DNA of 48,356 nt from Minisyncoccota bacterium (lineage in GTDB: Bacteria > Patescibacteriota > Microgenomatia > PFEM01 > JAFGMK01). Numbering within the stretch: position 1 is the stretch's first letter; every line of letters starts with the position of its first letter. Positions 16,744 through 27,300 of this stretch are shown here, in pieces. The position numbers were made by a program, and so were the translations under genes. Below the pieces are notes generated by a model. The model made no database searches, was not told where the DNA came from, and was given only the letters and a program-made list of their open reading frames with translations. The stretch is taken from the NCBI GenBank assembly GCA_016927565.1, contig JAFGMK010000023.1, forward strand, positions 1-48,356, in the 5' to 3' direction.

Positions 16744-18243
16744 ATGGTCAAATTGAAGAAGCAAAAATTAGATTCTTCCGCTCAGTCCGGGCAATCCCGT
16801 CCTCCGGTAGTGAGTATTTTGGGACACATTGATCATGGTAAGACCTCGTTACTTGATTTTATCAGGAAAGCGAAAATTGCCACCAGTGAGGTCGGAGGAA
16901 TCACCCAGCATATTGGGGCTTATCAGATAAGTTTCAAAAACAAAAAAATTACCTTTATCGATACGCCGGGCCACGCTGCTTTTGCTGAGATGCGGGCTCG
17001 GGGAGCCAAAGCAACTGATCTGGCAGTTTTAGTGATTGCCGGGGATGAAGGAGTTAAGCCTCAAACTCGGGAATCGCTCAAGTTTATCCGCCAAGCAAAA
17101 ATCCCCTTTTTAGTGGCTGTAAATAAAATTGATCTCCCGTCAAGTAATGTCGAGATGGTTATTAAACAGCTGGCTAAAGAAAATGTTTTGGTGGAAAAAA
17201 GAGGCGGAGAAGTGGTTTTGGTTCCGGTTTCGGCCAAAACCGGCGAGGGGGTTGAAGACTTGCTGGAAATGATCGTCTTAATTGCTGAAATGGAGGATTG
17301 GCGAGTTGAAGCAGAGGCGGCCTTAACCGGAGTGGTGGTGGAGTCAAAACTCGACTCTTCCAGAGGGCCGGTAGCGACGATTTTGGTTAAGTCAGGCCAG
17401 CTTTCCCGATCAGACACGATCTGGGCCGAGGGGGTTAAGGGAAAGGTAAAGGCGATGCGCGATGAAATGGGCCGGGAGGTCAAGCGGGCTGTTCCCAGTC
17501 AACCGGTGGAGGTTTTGGGTTTTGAATCGCCCCCGCCTGTGGGGGCCTTAGTGAATTCTTTAATAATGCCGAAAATTGGATCCGGGCCGCTGCCGGTTAA
17601 AAACCAAACTGTTTCTGACCAGGAATCGGAACGGCCGGTTTCTGATGAATCCCGGGGAAAAAATCTAAAGGTGGTTTTGAAGGCTGATACTCAGGGAACC
17701 TTAGAGGCAATTGAAGCTAATTTGCCTTCTAAGATAGAGGTAATTTATCGGGGAGTAGGTGATATTTGTGAGTCTGATGTTCTATTGGCTCAAACCACGG
17801 CTAGTTTTGTGATTGGTTTCGGTGTTCGTCTTCCGGCCGGAGTGAAAAAACTGGCTCAAATTGAAAAGGTGAGAATTCAAACTTTTAACTTGATTTATAA
17901 GCTCTTGGAGGAAGTAGAAAGTCAACAGCTAAAAACAGTAAAGCCGTTGATTAATGAAGAGGTGCTTGGCGAGGCGGAAGTATTAAAACAGTTTCAAGTC
18001 AATCAGAAAAAAATAGTCGGGGGACGGGTTTTGTCCGGCCGAATTGCTCGGGGTGATAGAGTTCATCTTAAACGAGGAAATAAGGTCATCGCCGATTCTT
18101 TTCTGAAGTCGCTGAAGCAAGGTAAGGTCGAAGTGGAGAAAGCGAAACCGGAAGAAGAGTTCGGGGCCTTATTGTTGCCCGAAATTGATTTTAGGAAAGA
18201 AGATGTGTTAGTATCTTTCCGCGAACTGCCCTCAAAAGGATGA
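16744..18243 (+). CDS. infB: Translation initiation factor IF-2 (short form)
   Basis: This 499-residue protein starts almost directly with the GTPase domain ([10 protein letters not shown]-loop near residue 27, [12 protein letters not shown]), followed by domain II (about 195-285), domain III (about 310-400) and the C-terminal C2 domain that binds fMet-tRNA (about 410-495). The long N-terminal region of IF2 in most bacteria is missing, so this is a minimal version. A linker (about 285-315) between domains II and III is charged and poorly conserved. The stop overlaps the start of the next gene by 4 bases (ATGA), indicating translational coupling. Confidence 0.95.
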
Positions 18244-19247
18244 GCCGCTTACCAGAAATTGACTTACTGAATAAAAGTCTGGCTGATTTTCAGAAAGGGG
18301 CTATCTTTATTCCTCAGAATCCTTCTTTTGATCAGGCGGCGGCGGCCTTGGGTCTTTTTTTGTCTCTTTCTCAATCAGGTAAGAGTTTTTCAGTAATCTG
18401 TTCGACGCCGATGACGGTCGGCTTCTCGCAATTAGTAGGAGTGGATAAGATTACTGAAAAAATCAACAGTCAAAATCTGGTTGTTAGTCTGGACTATCAG
18501 GAAGATGCTGTTAGTAAGGTTAGTTACAACCTTAACGGGAAAAAGTTTAATTTGATAATTCAGCCCAAACCCGGTTTCTCTCCTTTGTCAACCAGAAATG
18601 TCAAATTCTCTTATTCGGGTAAAACAGATTTTCTGGTGACTATCGGAGCTGCATCGCTCACCGATTTGGGCTCTGTTTATCAGACGGAAGCAGGAATCTT
18701 CAAAGAAGCAAAAATTTTAAACATTGATATTAGCCATGAAAATTCCCGATTCGGCAAAATTAATGTTGTTTTTTCTTCGGCCAGCTCTTATTCTGAGGTA
18801 ATTGCGGCTTTGCTGGAGATTGCTGATTATCCGGCTGATCAGGATATCGCAAGTAATCTTTTTTTAGGAATTAAAAAAGCGACCGATAATTTTACCAATC
18901 CCGGGACGAGCGCTGAAGCTTTTTCGGGGGCCGCTTTCTGCTTGCGTCATGGTGCCAGACGCCAGTCCGATCCGGTTCGGGCGGCTCCGGTAAAAGAAGC
19001 GGCAACTTTGAAAGTAATGTCTAAAAAAGATTCAGCAGGAAAACCGCCTCCGGTTAATGCATCCGCGGAGGCGGATGTGTCGGAAAATGATTTACCGGCA
19101 GGGAATTTTTCGCCCGGTCTGGTTGGAGACGCAGCTGCTTTTGAAGAGCCGGCAACCCAGACAAATTCCGGCGAGCCGGTTCCTGTTCAATCGCCGGCAG
19201 ATGATTGGTACGGGCCGAAAATATTCCGGGCGCCCAAGCGGGCCTGA
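18240..19247 (+). CDS. DHH/NrnA-like protein lacking catalytic metal ligands
   Basis: This 335-residue protein has residues 1-240 aligning by eye with DHH phosphoesterases of the NrnA type: NPSFDQAAAALGLFLSL (near 27-43), NIDISHENSRFG (161-172) and LGIKKATDNFT (209-219). At each place where NrnA has metal ligands they are changed: the first Asp of the DxD pair is Ser, the DHH triad reads Asp-Ile-Ser, and the Asp of GI..DT is Ala. The tail (about 240-335) is low-complexity, Pro/Ala-rich and probably disordered. It is coupled to infB, at a position where an nrnA gene is common in infB-rbfA-nrnA-truB operons. It is probably a catalytically dead, perhaps nucleic-acid-binding, relative. Confidence 0.75.
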   Translation: MSRLPEIDLLNKSLADFQKGAIFIPQNPSFDQAAAALGLFLSLSQSGKSFSVICSTPMTVGFSQLVGVDKITEKINSQNLVVSLDYQEDAVSKVSYNLNGKKFNLIIQPKPGFSPLSTRNVKFSYSGKTDFLVTIGAASLTDLGSVYQTEAGIFKEAKILNIDISHENSRFGKINVVFSSASSYSEVIAALLEIADYPADQDIASNLFLGIKKATDNFTNPGTSAEAFSGAAFCLRHGARRQSDPVRAAPVKEAATLKVMSKKDSAGKPPPVNASAEADVSENDLPAGNFSPGLVGDAAAFEEPATQTNSGEPVPVQSPADDWYGPKIFRAPKRA

Positions 19248-19339: not shown

Positions 19340-19621
19340 ATGGCTTTAAAGACCGACGAAAAGAAAAAAATTATTAAAAAATTTGCTACTGTTGCCGGTG
19401 ATACCGGTTCTCCTGAAGTCCAGATTGCCTTGCTGACGGCAAAGATTCAGAAGCTGTCATCTCACTTAAAGGAGCATAGGAAAGATACTCATTCTCGCCG
19501 CGGTCTCCTCTCGATGATTTCCAAAAGGAGACGTTTGCTAAATTATCTTTTAAAGGAAGACAAGAAAAAAGGAGCTGAGCGGTACAAGGGCGTGATTACC
19601 CATCTCGGACTTTCTAAGTAA
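19340..19621 (+). CDS. rpsO: 30S ribosomal protein S15
   Basis: This 93-residue protein has the S15 pattern: [52 protein letters not shown]15 binds the central domain of 16S rRNA early in 30S assembly. It is followed by pnp, the order found in many bacteria. It has its own promoter in addition to read-through from nusA-infB. Confidence 0.96.
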
Positions 19622-19648
19622 TTGACTTCCAAAACAAAGGAGAAGGAA

Positions 19649-21913
19649 ATGATTCAAAAGAAGACAAAGAGGGTTGTTGCTGATATTGAGGTTGGTGACA
19701 AGACTCTGGTTTTAGAAACCGGTTATTTGGCTGAGCAGGCAGATGGGGCAGTTCTTGCCAGGCTGGGCGATACTCTGGTTCTGGCGACAGTAGTGACAGA
19801 ACCAACCCGGGAAGAACTTGATTATTTCCCTTTGGGGGTTGAATTTATCGAAAGATTATATGCCGGAGGACGAATCAAGGGGTCGCGTTGGGTAAAAAGA
19901 GAGGGGCGGCCTTCTGACGAGGCGATTCTTACTGCCCGGTTAATTGATCGATCAATTAGGCCGCTTTTTGACAAGAGTTATCAATTTCGGATTCAAGTAA
20001 TAATAACCGTTCTTTCAGTTGATGCCGAAAATAGTCCGGATATTCCCGCTGCTTGTGCTACCAGCGCTGCTTTAGCTATCTCCGGAGTTCCCTGGAAGGG
20101 TCCGGTGGGAACGGTTAGATTGGGATTTGTAGCCAAAGACGGCGAAAGCAGTTTTATTATAAACCCGACTTATCAGGATCTTGAATATTCGGAAATGGAA
20201 ATGATTTTTTCAGGAACCGACCGGGCAGTGGTAATGATTGAGGGGAAGGCCAGAGAAATACCGGAAAAAACCTTTCTGGCTTCCCTGGACGAGTCTTTGA
20301 TTCAAATTAAAAAAATCATTAAAGGAATTAACGAATTTGCTGATAAGGCGGGGGTAAAAAAACAGATTTTCAGAAAGCTTGAAGTTGATCCGGCCTTAGT
20401 CGGAGAGATTAAGAAAGCAGCCGGTAAGGAAATTGAAGAAGCGGTTTTGGCGCCGGTCGGAGAGGGGGAAGCGATTAGGGATTCTGTTTCCCAATTAGTG
20501 GAAGCAATGATTGAGAAGTTCCCTGAAGCAGGCAGTTATCAGGTGAGAGAAGCGGTTGACCAGTTGATTAAAAAAGCTGTCCGAAGACAGATTCTTTTAA
20601 AGAAAAAGAGGATTGACGGCCGGGGTTTAAAAGAAATCCGTCCGATTGCGGTTGGAGTGAGCATCTTACCTCGAACTCATGGTTCGGCGATGTTTAAGAG
20701 AGGCAAAACTCAAGCCCTGACAATTGCGACTTTGGGCGCTCCTTCTCTGGGACAGTTGATCGAAAGCATGGAAGGAGAAGAAACTAAAAGGTATATGCAT
20801 CATTATTATATGCCTCCTTTTTCGACAGGCGAAACCGGACGATTGGGATGGCCTTCCCGGCGGGAAATTGGTCACGGGGCTTTGGCTGAAAGCGCTTTGG
20901 AACCGGTTATTCCCAGCGAGGAAAAATTCCCTTACACCGTTCGGGTAGTTTCAGAGATTATGTCTTCCAACGGTTCAACCTCGATGGCCTCAGTTTGTGG
21001 GTCAACCCTAGCTTTAATGGATGCCGGTGTGCCGATTAAGTCACCAGTGGCTGGGATAGCTATGGGCTTGATCAGTGACGGTAAGCAGCATCTGGTTCTT
21101 TCTGACATTCTCGGTCAGGAAGATTTTCAGGGAGATATGGATTTCAAGGTTGCCGGAAGCAAAGAGGGTATTACAGCGATTCAAATGGATGTTAAAAATA
21201 GTCAAATTCCCCTTAAAGTTTTAAAAGAAGCTTTCGAACAAGCCCGGGAAGGGCGGCTTTATATTCTGGATAAAATGTTGGCAGTCTTGCCGGCTTCGCG
21301 GACTCAAGTTTCTAAATTTGCGCCTAAAATTGAAGTAATTCATGTGCCGACCGAGAAAATCGGGGAAGTCATTGGCCCGGGCGGAAGAACAATCAAACGA
21401 ATTATCAGCGAAAGCGGGGCAACAGTAGACATCGAAGATGACGGCTCGGTTAATATTTCTTCTCCGGATAGAGTGGCAGTTGAGAAGGCGGCAGCAATGA
21501 TTCAAGGAATTACCCGGGAAGTTAAAGTAGACGATGAATTTGAGGGAACGGTTAAAAGAATTCAACCTTTCGGCGCCTTTGTCGAGATTGCTCCCGGGAA
21601 GGAAGGGTTGGTTCATGTATCTCAAATGTCAACCGATTTCGTCAATGACCCCGGCGAGGTGGTAGAGATCGATCAAAAGGTTAAGGTGAGAGTGGTTAAG
21701 ATTGATGAAATGAAACGGATCAATCTTTCAATGCTCGAAAAAGGCCAGAAGCCGCCGGAACGTTCAAGCCGGATGCCGGGGAGAGATCCGAATTCGGGAG
21801 GATACGATTCGGGAAGAAGATCTTCCGGGCGCTTTTCTGATCGGCCTCACCCTTACAAAAGGCGGTCGGATAATCGAAGATCGGGTTTCGGATCCCGCGA
21901 TTACCGTCGTTAG
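19649..21913 (+). CDS. pnp: Polyribonucleotide nucleotidyltransferase (PNPase)
   Basis: This 754-residue protein has two RNase PH domains (about 10-225 and 320-545), with a helical linker between them, then a KH domain (about 555-620, EKIGEVIGPGGRTIKRIISESGATVDIEDDG) and an S1 domain (about 625-695, GTVKRIQPFGAFVEIAPGKEGLVHVSQM). The tail is Arg/Ser/Gly-rich. PNPase degrades RNA 3' to 5' using phosphate. The ATG at 19649 is chosen because AAAGGAGAAGG precedes it; an upstream in-frame TTG at 19622 has no ribosome-binding site. It forms a unit with rpsO. Confidence 0.96.
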   Translation: MIQKKTKRVVADIEVGDKTLVLETGYLAEQADGAVLARLGDTLVLATVVTEPTREELDYFPLGVEFIERLYAGGRIKGSRWVKREGRPSDEAILTARLIDRSIRPLFDKSYQFRIQVIITVLSVDAENSPDIPAACATSAALAISGVPWKGPVGTVRLGFVAKDGESSFIINPTYQDLEYSEMEMIFSGTDRAVVMIEGKAREIPEKTFLASLDESLIQIKKIIKGINEFADKAGVKKQIFRKLEVDPALVGEIKKAAGKEIEEAVLAPVGEGEAIRDSVSQLVEAMIEKFPEAGSYQVREAVDQLIKKAVRRQILLKKKRIDGRGLKEIRPIAVGVSILPRTHGSAMFKRGKTQALTIATLGAPSLGQLIESMEGEETKRYMHHYYMPPFSTGETGRLGWPSRREIGHGALAESALEPVIPSEEKFPYTVRVVSEIMSSNGSTSMASVCGSTLALMDAGVPIKSPVAGIAMGLISDGKQHLVLSDILGQEDFQGDMDFKVAGSKEGITAIQMDVKNSQIPLKVLKEAFEQAREGRLYILDKMLAVLPASRTQVSKFAPKIEVIHVPTEKIGEVIGPGGRTIKRIISESGATVDIEDDGSVNISSPDRVAVEKAAAMIQGITREVKVDDEFEGTVKRIQPFGAFVEIAPGKEGLVHVSQMSTDFVNDPGEVVEIDQKVKVRVVKIDEMKRINLSMLEKGQKPPERSSRMPGRDPNSGGYDSGRRSSGRFSDRPHPYKRRSDNRRSGFGSRDYRR

Positions 21914-22060: not shown

Positions 22061-23152
22061 ATGAAAAGTGATGCCGGCGGAACAGAACTCCTTGAGGGAA
22101 TTGCCAGACTCGAAAAAAGAGTCAGTTTGGCTGCGGTTCCTCCTGACCTCGAAGAAAAAATGCTGTTAACCATCAAAAGATTGGAGCGGATGATTAAATT
22201 CGGACGATATTCTTCCGAATACGAGCAGGCTGTTTTTTATATCGAATGGGTTACCGAGTTGCCCTGGAATAAGAGAAGCGAAGACATTCTTGACATGGAA
22301 AAAGCCAAAGAAGTGCTTTATAAAAATCACTATGGCTTGGAAGCGGTTAAGGATAGAATTCTGGAGTATCTGGCAGTTATGTCATTAAGGAGAGAAAGGG
22401 GTGAAGGTAACGGAGCGAAAGAGGAAGGGATTCTAAAGTTTATGCGAGCGCCGATTCTTTGTTTGGTTGGTTTAGTCGGCACCGGAAAAACAACTCTGGC
22501 TTATTCAATTGCTGAGGCAATGGGAAGGGAATTTGCCCGCATTCCTTTTGGCGGAATGGGAAGCGCTCTTGATTTGAGAGGTCAATCACGGGCTCATCCT
22601 GATGCTGAACCGGGTTTGGTGTTGAAGGCCGTTAAACGCTGCGGGACTAAAAATCCGGTTATTTTACTGGACGAAATTGATCGGGTATCAGATAATGCCC
22701 GGAGTGAGATTATGGGGGTTTTGGTTGAGCTCTTAGATCCGGAGCAAAACGCCGCTTTTCGGGATCATTTTGTTGATTTTCCTTTTGACCTTTCCCAAGC
22801 ATTATTCATCGCCACTTGCAATAATACTACTAACATTTCCACGGCGGTTTTAGATCGTTTGGAGCCGCTGCAAATGCCTTCTTATAATGATCAGGAGAAA
22901 ATAATTATTGGCCAGAAATATGTTCTGCCCCGATTGTTAAAAGAATCAGGTCTGACCGGAGAAAATTTAAAAATCGATAAGGACGTTTGGCCAAAAATAG
23001 TCAGGCCTTTGGGTTATGATGCCGGAATTAGAACTCTGGGCCGGACAATCAATACACTTTGTCGGAAAGTGGCAAAAATGATTGTTGAGGGTCAGGGTAA
23101 AAACTTTCATATTACTACTGAGAACATCAAAGAATATATTCCCATCTGGTAG
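22061..23152 (+). CDS. Lon-type AAA+ ATPase without protease domain
   Basis: This 363-residue protein matches the middle part of Lon: the helical segment ending YIEWVTELPWNK (60-70) and HYGLEAVKDRILEYLAV (90-106), the AAA+ domain with Walker A GLVGTGKTT (137-145), the GTKNPVILLDEID Walker B (195-207), LLDPEQNAAFRDHFVDFPFDLS, a sensor-1 Asn (about 254) and the small helical lid with RTLGRTINTLCRKVAKMI. It ends at the point where Lon enters its protease domain, so the Ser-Lys catalytic dyad is absent, and the substrate-binding N-terminal LAN domain is missing too. It is likely a stand-alone unfoldase or remodelling ATPase. A TATGAT box at 22041 suggests a promoter close to the ATG. udg follows after 20 bases. 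Confidence 0.85.
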   Translation: MKSDAGGTELLEGIARLEKRVSLAAVPPDLEEKMLLTIKRLERMIKFGRYSSEYEQAVFYIEWVTELPWNKRSEDILDMEKAKEVLYKNHYGLEAVKDRILEYLAVMSLRRERGEGNGAKEEGILKFMRAPILCLVGLVGTGKTTLAYSIAEAMGREFARIPFGGMGSALDLRGQSRAHPDAEPGLVLKAVKRCGTKNPVILLDEIDRVSDNARSEIMGVLVELLDPEQNAAFRDHFVDFPFDLSQALFIATCNNTTNISTAVLDRLEPLQMPSYNDQEKIIIGQKYVLPRLLKESGLTGENLKIDKDVWPKIVRPLGYDAGIRTLGRTINTLCRKVAKMIVEGQGKNFHITTENIKEYIPIW

Positions 23153-23172: not shown

Positions 23173-23814
23173 ATGTCCGAAAAAGAAAAAAAATTAATTG
23201 AAATTGCTCGGCGGGTAAGCCAATGCACTAATTGTCCGCTTCATAAAACAGCGACTAATCCGGTTCCGGGCGCCGGGAATCCGGAAGCAAAAATTGTTTT
23301 CATCGGGGAAGCCCCCGGTTTTCATGAAGATCAACAGGGTTTGCCTTTTGTTGGAGCTGCCGGGAAACTTCTGGAACGCCTGCTGGCGCTGATCGATTTA
23401 AAACGGGAGGAGGTTTTTATTTGTAATATGCTTCGACACCGGCCGCCGGGGAATCGGGATCCCCTGCCTGAGGAAATGAAAGCTTGTCAGCCTTTCCTGG
23501 ATGAGCAGATCAAAGTTATCGACCCTAAAATTTTAGTCACCCTTGGCCGGTTTTCAATGAATAAATTTTTGCCGGGAGCATATATCTCTCAAGTCCACGG
23601 GGTGGCGAGATATGTTAATTTTGCCGGCAAGAAGCGGATTGTTATTCCCATGTATCACCCGGCAGCGGCTTTGAGGAACGGTCGGGTGATGACGGCTTTT
23701 AGGAATGATTTTCAGAGGATTCCCCGATTTCTCTTTGAATCGCTGAATCAGGAAGAAACAGAGGAAGTTGTTTCGGAAGAAAAAACTCAAGATGAACAGA
23801 TGGGACTGTTTTAG
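23173..23814 (+). CDS. udg: Uracil-DNA glycosylase, family 4-like
   Basis: This 213-residue protein has CTNC (18-21), GEAPG (45-49, motif 1), QGLPFVGAAGKLLERLL and YHPAAAL (motif 2), all typical of family 4 uracil-DNA glycosylases that excise uracil from DNA. These enzymes hold a 4Fe-4S cluster with four Cys. Here the first two (18, 21) and the fourth (105) are present, but the third position (KCRPP in the family) reads LRHRPP, with His89 in place of Cys; Cys84 lies five residues earlier. The C-terminus is an acidic tail ending QMGLF, which fits the QxxLF sliding-clamp binding motif. It is co-transcribed with the Lon-like ATPase. Confidence 0.88.
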   Translation: MSEKEKKLIEIARRVSQCTNCPLHKTATNPVPGAGNPEAKIVFIGEAPGFHEDQQGLPFVGAAGKLLERLLALIDLKREEVFICNMLRHRPPGNRDPLPEEMKACQPFLDEQIKVIDPKILVTLGRFSMNKFLPGAYISQVHGVARYVNFAGKKRIVIPMYHPAAALRNGRVMTAFRNDFQRIPRFLFESLNQEETEEVVSEEKTQDEQMGLF

Positions 23815-23919
23815 ACTCCTCCCCGATCTGTCATTCTCGTGTGATTAACAGTAAGTGCAAAATAGGGTAAGGGATAGTATCTGTTTGGGTATTTACTCGG
23901 TTTCTTAAAATAATTCAGA

Positions 23920-23973
23920 GTTATTCGATCCCGGGTCGGGGGGGCTGCGGATTATCAAGGAAAGTAAGTAATT
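23920..23973. repeat. Minor intergenic repeat (second family)
   Basis: The order CGATCCCG, GGGG, CTGCGGATTATCAAGGAAAG and TAAGTAATT resembles 47424-47485 (CGATCCCG, GGGG, CTCCGGATTGTCAAAGAGAG, TGAATAGTT). A shorter related piece lies near 21985-22005. MITE copy B begins at its right end. The function is unknown. Confidence 0.4.
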
Positions 23974-24092
23974 GGGACTGTTGAATAATATCTTGGCTAT
24001 TCGTCATTCTGAGGCTAAAAGCCGAAGAATCCCATTCGAAAAGGGTCTTTAGCAGTTCAGGATGACGATGCGGAAAACAATATCCAACACTC
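23974..24092. mobile_element. MITE-like inverted-repeat element, copy B
   Basis: The left end GGGACTGTTGAATAATATC and the right end CAATATCCAACACTC are imperfect inverted repeats. The inner blocks CGTCATTCTGAG, GCTAAAAGCCGAAGAATCCC and TCAGGATGACGATGCG match copy A closely. It is non-coding. With the second-family repeat on its left, it fills most of the 344-base gap between udg and ftsK. Confidence 0.75.
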
Positions 24093-24120
24093 TTGTGAGT
24101 AACTACAGGTTAGTGCCTGT

Positions 24121-24151
24121 TTGGCTTCGGGGGGTAGTTTTGTTGTATAAT
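24121..24151 (+). promoter_or_regulatory. Promoter of ftsK, overlapping an apparent upstream ATG
   Basis: TTGGCT (24121-24126) and a perfect TATAAT (24146-24151) are spaced by 19 bases. The -10 box overlaps an in-frame ATG at 24150, so that ATG cannot be the start. Transcription would begin around 24158, directly at the ATG at 24159, which implies a leaderless mRNA. Confidence 0.65.
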
Positions 24152-24158
24152 GGTTAAA

Positions 24159-26297
24159 ATGCCCAAAAAGAAAAAAAAGATCTCCTCTGTGGCCAGGTCC
24201 CGCCGGGGTCGCCGTCGGAAGCCATTCAAGCTAAAACTCAAAAAAGAAACAATTTACACTTTTTCTTCGGTCATTTTTTTTGTCTTGGCGGGAATTGTGA
24301 TCCTTTCTTTTTCCCGTCAGGGAATTATTTTAGCTAAAATTTTTGATTTTCTTAGTTTCCTTCTGGGGTGGGGAATTATTTTTGTCCCTTTTTTTCTTTT
24401 AAGTGCCGGGTTGATGCTTTCCCGGCTGAAGTGGCAACTAACCCGGCCTAATGTTTTTGTCGGCGGTTTCGTTCTTCTGATAGCAGCAGTTTCTTTAACC
24501 AGATCGGGCAGTCTGGGACAACTAATGTGGTCAAGGTTGGCCTTCTTAATGACTTCGAGAGGCGCTTTTCTGATTTTTTTTGGCTTATTTTTCGTCGGTT
24601 TTGTTGTCACTTTTAACACTTCTTTGGAAGAGGTGATTCTTTTTGTGGCCCACTTTTTTTTAGGGATTAAAAAAATATGGCTTTTTTTTACTAAAATTAA
24701 AAAGCCCCGTTTTGTGCTTTCCAAACCGAAGTTATCAGCTTCGGAAACAGGAACAGAGAAAAGAGAGATCGAAGTAAAAGGGAGGCCGAAAGAATCAGAA
24801 GAAACGGAGAATCAACCGGCCCTAACATCGGATTTAGCGGCCAGTTTTTCCGGTCAGGGAAAGATTTGGCAGCTTCCTTCGCTATCGATTCTTGAGGATA
24901 AAGTAAGTGGTCAGGCCGATCGGGGCGATATTAAAAAGAATGCCGATATAATAGAAAAAACCTTGGAATCTTTTGGGATTTCGGCTAGTGTTGTTGAGGT
25001 AAATTTAGGGCCGGCAGTGACCCAGTATGCTCTGGAGATTGCTTTGGGGACAAAACTGTCAAAAATTACCTCATTGGCTACTGATCTTGCTTTGGCTTTG
25101 GCTGCGCCGACGGGTCAGATTAGAATTGAAGCGCCGATTCCGGGGCGGTCTTTAGTTGGCGTCGAAGTTCCCAATCAAGTGCCTGAATTTGTTTCTCTGA
25201 AAAAGATGCTGATTTCAGACAAAATGAAGAACGCCAAGTCTAAACTGACTGTTGCTTTGGGTTTGGATGTTTCCGGCAGTCCCCTGGCGGTGAATATTGC
25301 CAAAATGCCTCATGTTTTAATTGCCGGTGCGACCGGGAGCGGCAAGTCGGTTTGTATCAATTCCTTTATTGCCTCGATTCTTTTTCGGGCTTCTCCGGAT
25401 GAGGTGAAGCTTATTTTAGTTGATCCGAAAAGGGTGGAATTAACCCAATACAATGACATCCCGCATCTTTTGACGCCGGTAATTGTCGAGCCGGATAAAG
25501 TACTTTCTGCTTTGAAATGGGCAATCTCGGAAATGGAAAAGCGCTACAAGCTTTTTGCCGAGGTGGGGGTGAGAAACATTGATGCTTATAATGAACTTTC
25601 GGGCTTAACGATTCTCCCTTATATTATCATTTTTATTGATGAATTAGCCGATATTATGCTTTTTGCTCCGGCTGATGTTGAAGATACCATTTGTCGGATT
25701 GCTCAGATGGCCCGAGCGACGGGAATTCATCTGGTTATTTCTACTCAAAGGCCGTCGGTAGATGTCATTACCGGCCTGATCAAGGCCAATATCCCCTGTC
25801 GGATTGCTTTCAATGTTTCTTCTCAAATTGATTCCCGAGTGATCATTGACACTCCGGGAGCAGAGAAACTTTTAGGTCGGGGGGATATGCTTTATATTCC
25901 GCCGGATCAAGCCAAGCCGACTCGAGTTCAGGGAACCTTTGTTTCCGATCCGGAGATTCAGCGGCTGATTTCGGCCCTTAAAAATTCGGGGATAGCGCCG
26001 GTTTACACTGAAGAGGTGATAGTTGATCATCAACCGAAAGACCGTCCCGGAATTGCCGGCGAAGATGAAGAAAGAGACGAGCTCTTTAAAGAAGCAGTAG
26101 AAATAGTTTGCCGTTTTGAGAGAGCTTCGGCTTCTTTGCTTCAAAGACGTCTAAAAGTCGGGTACGCCCGGGCCGCCCGGATTTTAGATCAACTGGAAAA
26201 AATGCAAATTGTCGGTCCGGCTGAAGGGGCAAAACCGCGAGAGATCCTGATCGGGAGTGCCGAGGAATATTTTTCTTCACAAACATCCCGGCCATAA
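24159..26297 (+). CDS. ftsK: DNA translocase FtsK
   Basis: This 712-residue protein has a very basic N-terminus, four transmembrane helices (about 30-165), and a charged linker. The motor domain (about 255-610) has Walker A GATGSGKS and Walker B IIIFIDELAD, then the FtsK-specific ISTQRPSVDVITGLIKANIPCRIAF. A C-terminal gamma winged-helix domain (about 635-705, RASASLLQRRLKVGYARAARILDQLEKMQIVGP) recognises KOPS-type sites. FtsK pumps chromosomal DNA at the division septum and activates XerCD recombination. The start is placed at 24159 because of the promoter position. The next gene starts directly after its stop. Confidence 0.95.
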   Translation: MPKKKKKISSVARSRRGRRRKPFKLKLKKETIYTFSSVIFFVLAGIVILSFSRQGIILAKIFDFLSFLLGWGIIFVPFFLLSAGLMLSRLKWQLTRPNVFVGGFVLLIAAVSLTRSGSLGQLMWSRLAFLMTSRGAFLIFFGLFFVGFVVTFNTSLEEVILFVAHFFLGIKKIWLFFTKIKKPRFVLSKPKLSASETGTEKREIEVKGRPKESEETENQPALTSDLAASFSGQGKIWQLPSLSILEDKVSGQADRGDIKKNADIIEKTLESFGISASVVEVNLGPAVTQYALEIALGTKLSKITSLATDLALALAAPTGQIRIEAPIPGRSLVGVEVPNQVPEFVSLKKMLISDKMKNAKSKLTVALGLDVSGSPLAVNIAKMPHVLIAGATGSGKSVCINSFIASILFRASPDEVKLILVDPKRVELTQYNDIPHLLTPVIVEPDKVLSALKWAISEMEKRYKLFAEVGVRNIDAYNELSGLTILPYIIIFIDELADIMLFAPADVEDTICRIAQMARATGIHLVISTQRPSVDVITGLIKANIPCRIAFNVSSQIDSRVIIDTPGAEKLLGRGDMLYIPPDQAKPTRVQGTFVSDPEIQRLISALKNSGIAPVYTEEVIVDHQPKDRPGIAGEDEERDELFKEAVEIVCRFERASASLLQRRLKVGYARAARILDQLEKMQIVGPAEGAKPREILIGSAEEYFSSQTSRP

Positions 26298-27021: not shown

Positions 27022-27300
27022 ATGGTTGACGTTGTTCAGATTATTTTGGTTATGGTGGTGACAACAGTAACAATTCTGTTGGTTATTTTAGGGATTCAGG
27101 TTTTTAATATCCTGAAAGAATTTAGAGGAACAATCAATAAGGTGAATAAAATGCTTGATGACTTCGGAACTGTTTCCGAATCAATTGCCAAGCCGATTGC
27201 TTCGGCTGCCGATATTTTGACCGGGGCAACCGGGATCACTGGTTTGTTGGGCTGGCTATTTAACCGAAAGAAAAAAGACGGAGGGATTGAAGATGAATGA
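27022..27300 (+). CDS. Small membrane protein, DUF948-like
   Basis: This 92-residue protein has an N-terminal transmembrane helix (residues 4-30) followed by an amphipathic helix (about 33-50, EFRGTINKVNKMLDDFGTVSESI), a glycine-rich turn and a basic-acidic tail. The pattern resembles DUF948/YtxG-type stress-associated small membrane proteins. It overlaps the start of the next gene by 8 bases. Together the two look like the ytxG-ytxH pair of general-stress proteins in Firmicutes. Function is inferred only from this resemblance. Confidence 0.7.
   Translation: MVDVVQIILVMVVTTVTILLVILGIQVFNILKEFRGTINKVNKMLDDFGTVSESIAKPIASAADILTGATGITGLLGWLFNRKKKDGGIEDE

Follow-up and report, generated by a model that had tools for sequence, protein, structure and literature searches.

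LON0, the label used here for the protease-less, stand-alone Lon-type ATPase encoded by the open reading frame at 22061–23152 of the analysed window (the whole 48,356-nucleotide stretch of DNA) and for its homologues, is almost certainly a strongly conserved, Lon-derived protein of single origin, consisting only of a three-helix (3H) region, an AAA+ core and a lid. Judged from its sequence, it looks fit for ATP hydrolysis and unsuited to Lon-style threading of polypeptides, and it is most fittingly described as a Lon-clade ATPase subfamily without a protease. The features of the window copy, which starts with ATG on the + strand and is 363 residues long, are as follows.

22061–23152, + strand: LON0, stand-alone Lon-type AAA+ ATPase, 363 residues (Pfam, NCBIfam and PDB matches, model)
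22100–22396, + strand: Lon three-helix (3H) region before the AAA+ core, residues about 14–112 (Lon alignment; helical in the model)
22469–22495, + strand: Walker A, residues 137–145, GLVGTGKTT, with Lys143 and Thr144 in 135/135 homologues (homologue alignment)
22577–22618, + strand: pore loop 1, residues 173–186, RGQSRAHPDAEPGL, in which His179-Pro180 replace the Tyr-Val/Ile pair of Lon (Lon alignment, homologues, cited papers)
22658–22681, + strand: Walker B, residues 200–207, VILLDEID, with Asp204 and Glu205 in 135/135 homologues (homologue alignment)
22682–22720, + strand: pore loop 2 region, residues 208–220, with Ala213 at the Phe/Tyr/Trp site of Lon (Lon alignment, homologues)
22820–22822, + strand: sensor-1 Asn254 (homologue alignment)
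22856–22858, + strand: arginine finger Arg266 (homologue alignment)
22940–23098, + strand: Lon lid subdomain, residues 294–346, with LON0-specific Trp310 and Arg315-Pro316-x-Gly318 (Pfam, homologue alignment)
23030–23032, + strand: sensor-2 Arg324 (homologue alignment)

The open frame comprises 367 codons and no N-domain is hidden 5' of the ATG, because an in-frame stop lies only four codons before it; at the other end, 20 intergenic bases separate the LON0 stop from the start of udg (23173). The informative Pfam matches were AAA (E = 3.8e-17) and Lon_lid (E = 4.4e-12), and neither LON_substr_bdg (PF02190) nor Lon_C (PF05362, the Ser-Lys protease domain) was matched. Against the NCBIfam profile 'lon' (TIGR00763) LON0 scored 313.6 bits, below the family cut-off of 608, and the alignment spanned profile positions 255–571 of 795, so that LON0 is without both ends of Lon: the globular N-domain, the long-helix part and the protease domain are absent. 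A search of other frames, of the upstream region and of the nearby DNA for an N-domain or a protease domain found none, and no frameshift was seen. The C-terminus is uniform, with 125 of 135 homologues stopping 0–4 residues past position 361. In a PDB sequence search the best relatives were all Lon, and the AlphaFold model (52 homologues as input; pLDDT 92.7, pTM 0.88) retrieved Lon structures only among the best 50 Foldseek matches, with TM scores of 0.85/0.91 against 6n2i, the isolated Lon AAA+ domain. LON0 is slightly acidic (pI 6.5 in the window copy; mean 6.0, n = 132) and therefore gives no sign of a basic nucleic-acid-binding surface. An earlier reading of the DNA, made from the sequence only, had described a Lon AAA+ module that had lost the N-domain and the protease domain other than by frameshift. 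Pfam, NCBIfam and the model bear this out, except that the lack of an N-domain holds for its globular and long-helix parts and not for the 3H region, which is retained.

The sequence-only reading had also listed a complete Walker A, Walker B, sensor-1 Asn and lid, all of which were found, together with the arginine finger and the sensor-2 Arg. The sensor-1 Asn, the arginine finger and the sensor-2 Arg occur in 134/135 homologues, the exception being a frame-broken copy. The P-loop GLVGTGKT, which that reading had set apart from GPPGVGKT, proved to be shared, as GL is found where Lon has GP in 134/135 homologues; the motif still fits the Walker A consensus, and the Pro-to-Leu replacement is a family trait and not a defect. 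By these motifs LON0 retains all of the residues predicted to serve ATP binding, hydrolysis and inter-subunit signalling, which makes both its assembly into a hexameric ring or spiral and its hydrolysis of ATP very probable.

The pore loops are altered. The residues that grip the substrate are Tyr565 in human Lon (PMC8163871), Tyr674/Ile675 in yeast Lon (PMC8913295) and Tyr397/Trp431 in MtaLon, with Trp431 being the pore-loop-2 aromatic (PMC10643698). Pore loop 1 of the Lons that co-reside with LON0 reads GHRRTYVGAMPG, with Tyr and Val in 20/20, whereas across the 135 LON0 homologues the Tyr site is occupied by His (36), Phe (24), Tyr (14), Arg (10), Ser (9) and others, and the Val site by Pro (82), Ala (19) and Leu (15); Asp/Glu181 and Glu183 have been gained in the same loop. 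The pore-loop-2 aromatic, Phe/Tyr in co-resident Lons, is replaced in most homologues by Ala (71), Ser (23) or Gly (19). The alignments thus indicate that the conserved polypeptide-gripping residues have been lost from both pore loops, and LON0 would not be built for threading in the manner of Lon, because the residues that grip substrate in Lon are not conserved.

The sequence-only reading had proposed looking for a separate full-length Lon in the same genome and for the same architecture in other Patescibacteria, and both exist. The window's genome encodes an intact Lon on contig C9 (an 831-codon frame with N-domain, AAA, lid and Lon_C). Nearly all of 59 genomes (its own and 58 relatives) carry the stand-alone version, of about 330–455 codons and 49–69% identity, accompanied in those genomes by a full-length Lon with 35–43% identity to LON0. 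In a sample of the class, LON0 was called in about 214 of 233 genomes at a best E ≤ 1e-100, full-length Lon alone giving matches weaker than 1e-81. Relatives were recovered by an alignment-based contig scan, a single-sequence scan having returned none; among the matches listed, they belong to Microgenomates (Gottesman-, Woese-, Shapiro-, Levy-, Roizman- and Daviesbacteria and others), Dojkabacteria, WWE3 and Woykebacteria, and ordinary Lon of other phyla ranks below them. In a phylum sample of 241 genomes, LON0 and Lon occurred together in 31, LON0 only in 38 and Lon only in ten. No intact Lon_C domain was found anywhere in the 38 LON0-only genomes; the weak partial matches there fall nearly all in frames of 430–570 codons, which by their size we take to be RadA and ComM. 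Some of these bacteria have retained LON0 after loss of the Lon protease. A split Lon with a separate protease gene is ruled out by the same 38 genomes.

In a tree of 59 AAA+ regions LON0 forms one clade (branch support 100/99), with the co-resident Lons and the Lons of other phyla on the other side of the branch. Pairwise dN/dS is 0.035–0.127 in all unsaturated pairs, a mark of purifying selection. LON0 is an old, strongly conserved protein of a large branch of tiny-genome bacteria and not a broken gene. The suspicion that it is an assembly truncation, a frameshift or a decaying Lon pseudogene draws on an architecture that resembles Lon cut at both ends and on a frame break in one relative (G039), but the same architecture recurs in hundreds of genomes as a single clade, under selection, with invariant catalytic residues and a uniform C-terminus; this explanation is refuted, and its chance of being right is negligible. 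The module is genuine, as the sequence-only reading had supposed. A mobile or viral origin was rejected, no LON0 relative being found in viral contigs and the plasmid matches listed being ordinary Lon of <40% identity; an anti-phage defence ATPase was likewise rejected, PADLOC having given weak partial P-loop matches only (best E = 3e-5) in a stable chromosomal context. One family, f52 (L211 in G075; G094:C27), has a very divergent LON0 at the pnp–rnj position as well as full-length Lons; L211 has a long branch and an unsure placement in the AAA+ tree, and its Walker A is GPPGTGKT.

The order of genes in the window is nusA–infB–ORF–rpsO–pnp–LON0–udg–ftsK, with the following neighbours of LON0.

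19340–19621, + strand: rpsO (ribosomal protein S15), conserved neighbour (neighbourhood survey)
19622–21913, + strand: pnp (PNPase), usual upstream neighbour (neighbourhood survey)
23173–23814, + strand: udg, family 4 uracil-DNA glycosylase, frequent downstream neighbour (Pfam, NCBIfam, neighbourhood survey)
24150–26297, + strand: ftsK, distal neighbour (neighbourhood survey)

The commonest context is rpsO–pnp–LON0–(udg)–RNase J–ftsK. Within three genes of LON0 at 135 distinct loci, rnj was found 89 times, pnp 86, rpsO 65, ftsK 53 and udg 50, and the distances to udg and rnj are often only a few bases, or the genes overlap. Promoter and terminator scans gave chance-level results, so that the case for an operon is made from intergenic gaps and synteny. 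The usual place of RNase J in relatives is between ftsK and LON0 (or udg), and it is absent there in the window (23815–24149); the sole RNase J of the window's genome is a divergent copy elsewhere (G000:C5:90866-92245, 29% identity). LON0 is dispensable: clean rpsO–pnp–rnj–ftsK sites empty of it occur in G422, G409, G315 and G384. In Dojkabacteria-like (f51) and Roizmanbacteria-like genomes LON0 lies away from pnp and rnj, the Dojkabacteria-like copies having unrelated neighbours. One lineage, whose named members are mostly Roizmanbacteria, has it beside divergently transcribed groES–groEL (10/135 loci: L078, L082, L087, L112, L118, L121, L137, L141, L147 and L152). The near-complete genomes of family f9 (e.g. 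G008, G032 and G047) have PNPase and LON0 with no recognized RNase J, and in G001, G002, G312 and G441 neither PNPase nor LON0 was found, for some of which missing contigs could account. Co-loss of LON0 with PNPase or RNase J was considered and rejected, as the loss is confined to LON0 in G315, G384, G409 and G422 and to RNase J in f9. Because almost every genome of the phylum has PNPase and RNase J, and LON0 or RNase J is also lost singly, presence/absence profiles are uninformative.

As a tentative proposal, LON0 may act by ATP-driven non-proteolytic remodelling, most likely for the RNA-decay and translation machinery whose genes surround it (rpsO, PNPase and RNase J): a partner, either protein or ribonucleoprotein, would be remodelled or held by its ATP-driven conformational change and would not be threaded into a protease. 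For the identity of LON0 and this mechanism taken jointly, our confidence falls a little short of even. The argument from synteny is limited, because this is an ancient and stable cluster, because PNPase and RNase J are near-universal and because f9 keeps LON0 without RNase J; likewise, gene position is no proof of function in a cluster that is old, conserved and sometimes without LON0. A more specific form, in which LON0 would power an RNA-decay complex of the Patescibacteria as its Lon-derived motor, the AAA+ ring remodelling RNA or ribonucleoproteins for PNPase and RNase J and so taking the role of the DEAD-box helicases of other degradosomes, is a long shot. A ribosome-assembly or translation-linked ATPase, to which the conserved nusA–infB–ORF–rpsO–pnp upstream of LON0 points, is improbable, since the same context occurs without LON0 and no ribosome-binding feature was recognized in the protein.

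The sequence-only reading had favoured a stand-alone unfoldase, and LON0 as a chaperone similar in action to ClpB or ClpX, threading or remodelling misfolded proteins, is consistent with the Lon-type AAA+ fold, the intact ATPase residues, the adjoining groES–groEL genes and the Phe or Tyr that remains at the pore-loop-1 site in 38/135 homologues. This reading is weakened, however, by the pore loops, as conservation has been lost at the pore-loop-1 Tyr, at the hydrophobic residue paired with it and at the pore-loop-2 aromatic, the aromatic–hydrophobic pair being invariant in co-resident Lons and variable in LON0; mutating the pore-loop-1 Tyr impairs human LONP1 (PMC8163871), and in MtaLon with a mutated pore-loop Tyr the substrate-bound closed ring does not form (PMC10643698). 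With the groESL neighbourhood also limited to a single lineage, we regard an unfoldase as unlikely, though worth keeping in mind. That reading's broader suggestion, a role other than bulk proteolysis, stands, but its link to DNA repair has lost ground. A partnership with the neighbouring uracil-DNA glycosylase could explain why udg lies directly downstream in 39/135 loci with short or overlapping gaps and why the two genes remain paired in some rearranged genomes (L198–L200, L208). Against it, udg and LON0 do not co-occur in the phylum sample (udg in 49/69 genomes with LON0 and 111/172 without; p = 0.37), of the 45 udg genes that could be placed in LON0 genomes 17 do not adjoin LON0, many genomes retain LON0 without udg, and pnp–udg–rnj is contiguous where LON0 was not found (G080, G224). 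Because udg is thus independent of LON0 and the three genes adjoin one another without it, the adjacency seems to be a legacy of an older gene cluster, and a repair role is very doubtful. Truncated Lon monomers can join and inhibit the Lon pentamer (PMC10643698) and LON0 keeps the inter-subunit arginine finger, but 38 of the 69 LON0 genomes of the phylum sample have neither full-length Lon nor an intact Lon_C. LON0 is therefore neither half of a split Lon nor a general Lon subunit; a part inhibiting or tuning full-length Lon is refuted as its general role and is highly unlikely altogether. Non-proteolytic remodelling for the surrounding machinery is the reading that we prefer. In G126, LON0 stands beside udg on C5 and a second pnp–udg–rnj set lies on C9; C5 may be a binning contaminant.

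Among known systems, the LonA protease (endopeptidase La, MEROPS S16, TIGR00763) is the closest: from the 3H region through the AAA+ core to the lid it aligns with LON0 over the full length at about 38% identity, the ATPase motifs are common to both, and it provides the closest PDB fold. Unlike LonA, LON0 has no globular N-domain, long-helix part or Lon_C, its pore loops are degenerate and it forms a separate clade; lacking the N-domain, the protease domain and a gripping pore loop, and scoring below the cut-off, it falls outside the LonA protease family. Stand-alone unfoldases of the ClpX/ClpB type are, like LON0, AAA+ ATPases without an in-chain protease, but they belong to other AAA+ clades and have conserved aromatic pore loops, whereas in LON0, which belongs to the Lon clade, these aromatics are not conserved. 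Isolated Lon AAA+ constructs (PDB entry 6n2i, ΔN-Lon fragments) have nearly the same boundaries but are engineered pieces of a protease, whereas LON0 is a natural gene. The truncated monomeric Lon that inhibits the Lon pentamer (PMC10643698) also lacks the N-domain, but it is engineered, the solved one keeps the protease domain, and LON0 occurs where there is no Lon to inhibit. A search of the open-access literature on Lon in Patescibacteria or Microgenomates and on protease-less Lon found no description of such a protein; the novelty of LON0 is provisional, because that search was limited to open access.

LON0 shows that, in a large branch of the Patescibacteria, the Lon ATPase module parted from proteolysis at an early stage and stayed under strong selection even where Lon was lost; in gene-poor genomes of about 1 Mb, a Lon-like ATPase so widely kept must be useful. 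As a natural Lon motor that is free of protease and altered in its pore loops, LON0 can serve to probe what the module does beyond threading, and it is a candidate part of the RNA-decay machinery in these bacteria. If annotated automatically, it could be labelled 'Lon protease' or a generic AAA ATPase, and the proteases of these genomes would then be overcounted.

Two further frames in the window have no Pfam match. A 335-residue ORF (18240–19247) lies between infB and rpsO, with cluster members at 28 loci in the 20 kb neighbourhood survey. The other, of 92 residues (27022–27300), has homologues that follow ftsK/HTH_25 genes in related loci.
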